Assembly (NCBI GenBank): GCA_015075625.1 | Contig: JABTTZ010000001.1 | Location: forward strand, 1,922,001-1,986,000 | DNA: 64,000 nt | Origin: Anaerolineales bacterium | GTDB taxonomy: Bacteria; Chloroflexota; Anaerolineae; Aggregatilineales; UBA2796 | Direction of reading: 5' to 3' | In this document: positions 36,952 through 63,137 of the stretch, one piece after another | How positions within the stretch are numbered: the stretch's first letter is position 1 | How the letters are laid out: every line of letters begins with the position of its first letter | Made by a program: the position numbers and the translations under genes | The notes under the pieces: generated by a model | What the model was told of the DNA's origin: nothing | What the model saw: the letters and a program-made list of their open reading frames with translations, nothing else | Databases searched by the model: none

Positions 36952-37149
36952 CAAATCATCAGATTGGTTACTTACGAGGCTGCAAGATAGTAGGAAGATT
37001 TCCCCGTATAGAGGGACAATCTCTCAAGAAACTGGCTGTCGAAGAGTGCTGCAACATTTAATCGCTTTACACCGCCGCTGCTATGGTGCTTTGAATTCTG
37101 TGGTATTTGTGGTGGGGAATAGCCTGAGGCTGCGCCATAGGTAACGCTA

Positions 37150-37307
37150 CAGCATTTTTCAAAGAGATTGACCCCTTAGTGGTTGACAGCCCTGCTTATC
37201 ACGATATGCTTATCGATGGGCTAGGCGGTGGTGATCTAAGGGGTAAACGAGCGACGCCCGCCCTTCTTGTAAGAAGGCTGGTTGCCGCCCAACCAGTGAG
37301 GGTACTG
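37150..37307. repeat. 158-bp dispersed element, copy 1
   Basis: Begins CAGCATTTTTCAA and ends GAGGGTACTG, flanked by TA on both sides. The same 158-bp element, in inverted orientation, lies at 62,656-62,813. A 74-bp internally deleted copy is at 47,010-47,083. It contains several small hairpins, for example CCTTCTTGTAAGAAGG, and no ORF. It behaves like a small non-autonomous mobile element. Confidence 0.75.
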
Positions 37308-37452
37308 TACGCCACACGGTTTTCGAGCATCTGTAACCCCTCCTTTCCCCCTTCTCCCTCAGAGAGAAGGGGGGTAGATTAAGGTCACGTGGGTAACGCC
37401 TAGCCAGTGTTAAATACCTCCTGTCATACCCTTCTTTTTGGGCATAGGCACA

Positions 37453-46832: not shown

Positions 46833-47274
46833 AGCTGCGCGTGTCCTTTTGAGTGCGGGTGCTTTTGGGATTCAAAGAAAACGTAAGGATTCTACTGCAA
46901 GTTGAGAGGAAACTCAATGCAGGTTCAAAGAGGTCGGCGTCACCGTGATCGAACAGCGACCAACCACAACTATTGGTGGGTAAAGGTGGGTGTCCCTCGC
47001 GCTTTAATGCAGTACCCTCACTGGTTGGGCGGCAGCCAGCCTTCTCACAAGAAGGGCGGGGTCAATCCCCTTGAAAAATGCTGTAGGGGGTGTAGGGTGT
47101 GTTGACCGTGTAACCCCAGTGATCCCGCCGCTAAAGCAGCGGGCTGAAAACAACCACCTCTTTGGGGCTTGGAAACTCTAACACCCACTCCGTACACAGA
47201 AAGAGGGAATCGCTCCCCCTTTCCCTGCAAGCGGGGAAAGGGCGTAGGGGGGATAGGAGTTTTTGAAATACGTT
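46833..47274. other. 442-bp intergenic region with dispersed repeats
   Basis: Holds the 74-bp short copy of the dispersed element (47,010-47,083) and a CCCCTTTCCC / GGGGAAAGGG palindrome around 47,217-47,240. No gene was recognised. Confidence 0.5.
47010..47083. repeat. 158-bp dispersed element, internally deleted copy
   Basis: Begins CAGTACCCTCACTGGTTGGG and ends GAAAAATGCTG, flanked by TA on the right. Compared with the 158-bp copies, the central 84 bp is missing, with the two ends joined at a short G-run. It resembles a deletion derivative of a mobile element. Confidence 0.7.
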
Positions 47275-61638: not shown

Positions 61639-62213
61639 GGGGTGTTCTCTTTGGGGGTGTTCTCACTCGGCGCAAGAAGTGCTTCGAGAATGGGACGAAC
61701 GTCGGCGGCGCTGATCGGTTGGATGAAAATCTTCGCCAATTTCCCTTCTTTATCGACAATAAACGTCTCTGGAACGCCTTTGATCCGGTAGGCGCGGCTG
61801 GCGGCGTTCCCGCTATCATGCCCGGTTGGGTAGACTATGCCAAATTCAGCAAGGAAGGCGCGAGCATTCGCTTCGGTATCGTTGTACCCGACCCCAACGA
61901 GGACGACGCCGCGATCTTCGTAATCTTCCCAAAGGGCGTTCAGGTCGGCGGCTTCCGAGCGGCAGGGTCCGCACCAACTCGCCCAGAAATTGACGAGGAC
62001 AACCTTCCCTCGCAGATCGTTCAGGCGCAGCGGTTCGCCTGTGTCATAGCGGATAATCGTGAAATCGGGCGCATCGCCGCTGGCAACTTGCCCCTGATTC
62101 GCCTCAAAGAGCGCCCATGCCAACCCTAACATAAAAAGGATGGGGAAGATCAACAGCGCGATCAGTGCGGCGGGGCGGGTGGTACGAATCGTTGTTTCTG
62201 GCGTAGTATTCAT
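61635..62213 (-). CDS. TlpA/ResA-like membrane thioredoxin
   Basis: 192 residues. An N-terminal signal anchor (LIALLIFPILFMLGLAWALF) holds an extracytoplasmic thioredoxin domain with NFWASWCGPCRSEA (CGPC near residue 82), VVLVGVGYND and GVPETFIVDKEGKL. Family members (ResA, CcmG, TlpA) keep apocytochrome cysteines reduced for heme attachment, in line with the CcmI-like neighbour. It overlaps both flanking genes by 4 bp. Confidence 0.88.
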   Translation of the reverse strand: MNTTPETTIRTTRPAALIALLIFPILFMLGLAWALFEANQGQVASGDAPDFTIIRYDTGEPLRLNDLRGKVVLVNFWASWCGPCRSEAADLNALWEDYEDRGVVLVGVGYNDTEANARAFLAEFGIVYPTGHDSGNAASRAYRIKGVPETFIVDKEGKLAKIFIQPISAADVRPILEALLAPSENTPKENTP

Positions 62214-63137
62214 GATGCGGCGTTGGCACGTTTCTTTCTTGTGCGGCGGATCGTATTGGTGACCACCGAGAGCATGTTACTTATGGAGAGTGGGGCAATG
62301 CAAACGAGCAGATCGCCCTTCTGAAAGCCGGGATTGCGTTCAAGGAAAAAGCGAAGGGTGGGCAGTTTCAATTCCTTTGTCGAAACGGGCAGCACAAAAT
62401 CCCGCAGTTTGCGATCCCCTGTCCCTTCGACAATACCGCGTTCGGCGTCCCACGCCTCTCCATAACGCTGACGGGCAAGAAAATCGACAAAGCGGGCATA
62501 CCATTCTGGCGTAGGGCGATCACGGCGGGGGTAGAATTCCTTCATGTTACGGGAGAGCATCAGATAACTTTTGTAGCTGAAGGTATCAAAGAGGATGAAA
62601 ATGGGCGTGAAGGGGTGACGAACCCGTGCTTGCAGGTAATTTTGAATCCCTATTGCAGTACCCTCACTGGTTGGGCTGCAACCAGCCTTCTTACAAGAAG
62701 GGCGGGCGTCGCTCGTTTACCCCTTAGATCACCACCGCCTAGCCCATCGATAAGTATATCGTGATAAGCAGGGCTGTCAACCACTAAGGGGTCAATCTCC
62801 TTGAAAAATGCTGTAAGCGTTGAATAATGTTCAAGCCACGATAGCCATCTGCCAAGAGGACATTTCCCCCAAAAATGATCACGTAGCGTCGCCCCTCAAA
62901 GGTTACCGGATAGCGCTGCACTGCCGCTAAGCCCACCAATTCCCCCGAATCGTGATCTCGAATGAGATAAACCTTCTGTTTTTGGCGAAGGCTGCGCTCG
63001 TAAATCTCGCGGGTGGTATCCGTAAAGCGGTTGGCAAACGTCCAAATGTCATCGACGTGGGCGGCAGTGAGTGTTGGCACGGGTAGAGATTCAAGGCGAA
63101 TACGCTTGCCTATAGCAGGCTTCGGCTGATTGGACAT
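62210..63137 (-). pseudogene. GNAT-like gene split by the 158-bp dispersed element
   Basis: Two halves in one original frame. 63,137-62,814 encodes the N-terminal ~108 residues (IWTFANRFTDTTREIYERS, VYLIRDHDSGELVGLAAVQ, GGNVLLADGYRGLNIIQRL). Then comes the inserted element, then 62,650-62,210 (GIQNYLQARVRHPFTPIFIL, FDTFSYKSYLMLSR, and onward). Read through the insertion, translation stops at a TAG inside the element. Deleting 62,651-62,813 leaves CGC TTA GGG ATT and restores the frame exactly. The motif ADGYRGLNIIQRL resembles the acetyl-CoA site of GNAT enzymes. The second half has an internal ATG at 62,560, but it is unlikely to be a real gene. It lies in an operon with tlpA-like genes. Confidence 0.8.
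62656..62813. repeat. 158-bp dispersed element, copy 2 (gene-disrupting)
   Basis: Inverted copy of the element at 37,150-37,307 and of the same length. It begins CAGTACCCTCACTGG and ends GAAAAATGCTG next to TA. It carries internal small hairpins (CCTTCTTACAAGAAGG type) and a CCCCTTAG / CTAAGGGG pair. A TA target duplication is suggested by 62,651-62,652 and 62,814-62,815, with three extra bases before CAGTACC at this site. Confidence 0.75.

Follow-up and report, generated by a model that had tools for sequence, protein, structure and literature searches.

A candidate portable expression cassette: a 163-bp mobile repeat that divides a gene in a Chloroflexota genome

Does the minus-strand region 62210–63137 of the window – the whole 64,000-nt stretch of DNA analysed here, from an Anaerolineales bacterium – hold a single gene broken by a mobile insert, and what kind of element is that insert? 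A preliminary description had proposed that the two halves of a GNAT-like gene rejoin exactly once a short, recent, mobile element is taken out.

One gene, divided by an insert

The region holds one ancestral gene divided in two by the insert. The minus-strand junction reads CGC T|TA CAGC...CTGCAA|TA GGG, and removal of 163 bp on that strand yields a single 254-aa open reading frame (ORF; ...RGLNIIQRL|GIQNYLQAR...). The N-terminal half (62784..63137, minus strand) now runs into the element to a stop, giving 117 aa, while the C-terminal half occupies 62210..62650 on the same strand. When an empty site was sought in relatives, it was found in a genome of the same genus (G001), where one intact 266-aa ORF (L032:1495–2295) reads RGLNVIQRL|GLQNYLSAR at the junction and aligns there with the restored protein without a gap, at 69% identity. 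A homologue from Myxococcales, with 28% identity in the alignment, likewise runs unbroken over the junction. Both halves are real and belong to one original frame, as the preliminary description had it, and the agreement is far beyond chance.

The C-terminal half does contain an internal ATG ORF (the first, at 62210–62560, of 116 aa), as might be expected if two separate genes lay here and the element were an intergenic regulatory region. We attach practically no credence to this reading, which is already refuted by the single, continuous proteins of the congener and of the Myxococcales homologue. The family label is a weaker matter: the gene does match Pfam Acetyltransf_9, which is what remains of the description ‘GNAT-like’, but with E = 0.02 and below the curated cut-off.

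The element itself measures 163 bp rather than the 158 bp first given, a figure at odds with the interval 62,651–62,813 that accompanied it. Its exact ends are ambiguous because of two TA bases, and the limits used here (62653..62815, minus strand) represent one of three equivalent registers, with the left end TACAGCATTTTTC at 62815 and the right end ...GGGTACTGCAATA at 62651. The TA at the right junction (62651..62652, minus strand) is absent from many other copies; just one TA was present before insertion, and one is left upon removal, as had been claimed. That this particular gene was hit is a matter of chance, the element being non-autonomous and prolific.

A dispersed and lineage-specific family

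About 100 copies are present in this Chloroflexota genome. BLAST with the element found at least 40 genomic places with 90–100% identity, pattern searches of the genome returned 91 matches to the left end and 98 to the right, and a profile search of the retrieved genome stretches gave 102 matches, 93 of them full-length (160–166 bp) – a sample that favours intact right ends, because old copies were retrieved partly through right-end patterns. The copies are short, non-coding, dispersed and nearly all of one length. Two further ones lie in the window: a second full copy on the plus strand (37148..37309), 98% identical and with a right end that lacks the TA, and an internally deleted copy on the minus strand (47005..47085) that retains model positions 1–28 and 110–165.

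A second empty site came to light within another repeat of the same genome, where the filled locus (L063) reads CAACAGCCCC|TACAG...CAATA|GTTACCGG and its empty counterpart (L079:740–882) reads CAACAGACCCTGGTTACCGG. Together with the empty site in the congener and the dispersal of the copies, it bears out the mobility of the element; its recency, also proposed earlier, agrees with an identity of 98–99% to other copies and with its absence from the congener.

The element was not found in 40 relatives by DNA comparison, in 60 relatives by a covariance model, or in about 400 genomes of the phylum Chloroflexota; its exact right-end patterns had no match in the genome_contigs and viral_contigs collections, and a covariance-model search of Rfam 15 gave no match up to E = 1. 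As far as the collections searched show, the element is lineage-specific. Two loci are peculiar. L092, considered as a copy starting inside the element, has a right flank identical to that of L035 and was excluded as a recombinant, and at L045:1198–1362, the element is followed in the flank by a tandem duplicate of the final 16 bases of its right end.

A conserved promoter, leader and Shine–Dalgarno sequence

The preliminary description had overlooked what the element carries from left to right: TTGACA-N16-TATACT, two covarying hairpins and GAGGG just ahead of the TACTGCAATA end. In the copy that divides the gene, all on the minus strand, the sigma-70-like promoter (62753..62780) points to the right end and matches the sigma-70 consensus at 11 of 12 positions, a sequence kept in diverged copies. 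Beyond it lie, with approximate limits, the leader hairpin CCTTCTTgtAAGAAGG (62684..62700; helix 2, with 96.9% of cells paired and two pairs with double changes), a hairpin between leader and right end, CTGGTTGcagccCAACCAG (62665..62684; helix 3, CTGGTTG-CAACCAG, roughly 14 nt inside the right end, with 98.1% of cells paired and again two pairs with double changes), and the Shine–Dalgarno-like GAGGG by the right end (62658..62664). For the hairpins taken together, 97.7% of cells are paired and five pairs have double changes, values matched by 0 of 500 shuffles.

These parts have outlasted their surroundings. Among the 20 copies with the most diverged interiors, the promoter departs from the consensus at 6.7% of positions, the Shine–Dalgarno sequence at 3% and the hairpins at 11%, compared with 25.7% for the remainder: old copies preserve promoter, leader and Shine–Dalgarno sequence while the rest decays. 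Promoter mismatches are also fewer in gene-abutting copies than in the others (2.9% vs 6.8%), and the rest of the abutting copies is not less diverged. Sequence and conservation together suggest that promoter and Shine–Dalgarno sequence work. Sequestration of the latter as a switch was considered and set aside, since in predicted leaders it is partly paired to a variable extent (mean pairing 0.58).

The position of the copies relative to genes points in the same direction. In 17 copies – about one in six – a coding ORF starts 13–19 nt past the first G of GAGGG, whereas the left end has just two genes that begin within 6 nt of it (two-sided sign test, about 0.0007, with counts based on our own codon-score gene calls); this excess could come partly from insertion bias. 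The majority of copies do not abut any start codon. Among the genes that follow abutting copies, which include essential ones, are holA (DNA polymerase III delta), glycogen synthase, aldehyde dehydrogenase, a PALP enzyme, a family-4 glycosyltransferase and a phosphopantetheinyl transferase, and a biotin carboxylase starts somewhat farther off, at 29 nt. Several of the called starts are consistent with where Pfam domains begin (residue 2 in glycogen synthase, residue 3 in a His-phosphatase and residue 12 in holA), and no shared function or pathway was seen among the downstream genes. Gene-fronting copies have probably been kept by selection.

The reading that we prefer, with a probability of roughly two in three, is that of a non-autonomous mobile element acting as a portable expression cassette. 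A unit of about 161–163 bp, presumably moved by a transposase supplied in trans, has inserted into the putative GNAT gene at CGCT^TAGGG; its internal sigma-70 promoter, structured leader of about 95 nt and Shine–Dalgarno sequence (GAGGG) would together form a mobile 5' region, from which any gene beginning just beyond the right end would receive both promoter and ribosome-binding site. Counting against this reading are the partial pairing of the Shine–Dalgarno sequence in predicted leaders, the majority of copies that abut no start codon, and the search for an autonomous partner, which found none with matching ends. If the cassette works, one insertion can swap a gene’s entire expression signal, and some 100 natural insertions in one genome would offer a direct test of how bacterial transcription and translation are rewired. 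A bolder version strikes us as quite improbable: a cis-regulatory leader RNA that brings along both promoter and ribosome-binding site would have acquired mobility and be placing many unrelated genes, essential ones included, under a single regulatory input – a regulon built by transposition, through a mechanism needing no inverted repeats.

Promoter-bearing small repeats are already known; here, the moving unit appears to consist of promoter, structured leader and Shine–Dalgarno sequence, and to end at the start codon. Correia elements are bounded by terminal inverted repeats and insert at TA. Known from Neisseria (as CREE/NEMIS), these abundant, non-autonomous units of 105–155 bp carry sigma-70-like promoters, lie directly upstream of genes and form RNA stem-loops (PMC10969869, PMC2229807). 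The present element resembles them in being short, abundant, non-autonomous and gene-adjacent, with a sigma-70-like promoter and stem-loops; it differs in its lack of terminal inverted repeats, its asymmetric ends, its CYTA left junction and its right-end Shine–Dalgarno sequence abutting start codons. In the Bacillus cereus group, bcr1 repeats are 100–400 bp long, occur in up to 130 copies within one lineage and have a mobility tied to the motif TTTAT (PMC6542083). They share with our element size, copy number, lineage restriction and a short target motif; the motif is a different one, however, and the text consulted describes no promoter and Shine–Dalgarno cassette abutting start codons. A limited literature search found no report of a small bacterial repeat with a Shine–Dalgarno sequence at its edge abutting start codons.

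Asymmetric ends and candidate modes of movement

The ends of the element – no inverted repeats, CYTA on the left, CAAT-unit additions on the right – raise the question of how it transposes. The left junction is fixed and sharp: base counts over 93 copies show C at position -2 in 84, a pyrimidine (C or T) at -1 in 90, and then T in 89 and A in 90, followed by the conserved CAGCATTTTTC. At the interrupted gene, this CYTA tetranucleotide is represented by CTTA (62814..62817, minus strand). The target preference suspected earlier does exist, and takes the more exact form of C-(C/T)-T-A on the left, with purines mildly favoured on the right. The right end is variable, being conserved up to TACTGCA and then continuing as ATA in most copies and differently in many. 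Terminal inverted repeats of useful length are absent (left TACAGCATTTTTC vs right, in reverse complement, TATTGCAGTACCC). The flanking TA is indistinguishable from element sequence, and left and right k-mers show no correlation among copies that would indicate a target duplication. Orientation shows no bias with local GC skew (41 of 93 copies), and -10-like boxes near insertion sites were rejected as a target signal, being enriched to a similar degree whichever strand or side is considered, with no position preference.

These features bear on whether the element might be an ordinary MITE, mobilised by an IS630/Tc1-type DDE transposase with duplication of a TA target, in which the promoter-like and Shine–Dalgarno-like sequences are incidental. 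The single TA of the empty site, the TA on both sides here and in most copies, and a left end starting TA-CAG, a start common among Tc1-type ends, would all fit. Transposition of this type accounts for the TA but not for the missing inverted repeats or for the loss of the TA on the right, where it directly follows TGCAA in about 58 of 93 copies, compared with about 89 of 93 for the left TA. Among the 29 least diverged copies, about eight lack the right TA and all 29 have the left one, a pattern unlike that of a decaying duplication. As promoter and Shine–Dalgarno sequence are, moreover, better conserved than the remainder, we hold this reading to be unlikely.

Non-autonomous elements and REPs derived from IS200/IS605 have no terminal inverted repeats or target-site duplications, a conserved tetranucleotide next to the left end and a right subterminal hairpin (PMC6006769). 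Our element resembles them in all these respects – neither inverted repeats nor a correlation pointing to target duplication, CYTA at the left, a right subterminal hairpin – and differs in having no robust left hairpin, no identified guide sequences and neither an autonomous IS nor a Y1 gene that matches it. Single-strand (HUH, IS200/IS605-like) insertion 3' of CYTA agrees with the asymmetry of the ends, the tetranucleotide on the left and the hairpin on the right. It is our leading guess for movement, a tentative one, weakened by the left end, where no robust subterminal hairpin was seen (mean folding z +0.29). A search for an autonomous partner with matching ends found none: the end matches pair at about 160 bp or represent cut-off or diverged copies (six further near matches to one end lay outside the comparison). 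Nor did a cognate TnpA emerge, as the genome’s four Y1 hits all lack both similarity to the element and matching ends.

The same features can be taken further, to a REP-like, IS200/IS605-derived element moved by a Y1 HUH transposase, whose hairpins are retained for DNA recognition and not as an RNA leader. The fixed left tetranucleotide, the hairpin some 14 nt short of the right end, the absence of inverted repeats and of any sign of target duplication, and the Y1 genes in the genome speak for it; we nonetheless find it doubtful, given the lack of a robust left hairpin and the absence of matching ends at all four Y1 loci, and it leaves unexplained both the conservation of promoter and Shine–Dalgarno sequence and the abutment on start codons. 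At L098 (G000:C1:1725926–1726267 and flanks), a Y1 (RAYT-like) transposase gene is embedded in a long REP-like hairpin array (CTTTCCAAGCCCCGTAGGGGTGGTTATTCCTAGCGCGGG...CCCGCGCC), which forms a repeat system of its own and a very dense one. L099 and L100 contain decayed remains of IS200/IS605 (TnpA fragments) that bear no similarity to the element, the latter with an ORF that, judged by eye, is TnpB-like.

About ten copies have four-base units added at the right end (TG-CAAT-CAATA, TG-CAAG-CAATA, TG-CATG-CAATA, with up to about four units). Such CAAT-like units between TG and CAATA occur at L004_1817, L040, L046, L057, L073, L077, L088, L089, L090 and L091, in copies of different subfamilies. 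Additions of the form TG-(CAAT)n-CAATA and its variants would suit a SINE-like retroelement, with the variable right junctions arising from template-primed copying. We consider this very improbable: an internal promoter would leave the element’s left third untranscribed, and truncation is possible at both ends.

The genome also contains a second abundant repeat family, with ends ...GGTTACACGGTCAACACACCCTAG and a CCCGCTGCTTTAGCGGCGGG hairpin, seen in the flank of the deleted copy at 47005–47085 in the window and at L008, L027, L045, L056, L087 and L099. The 163-bp element is often placed at the CCTAG or CCTA of this family.
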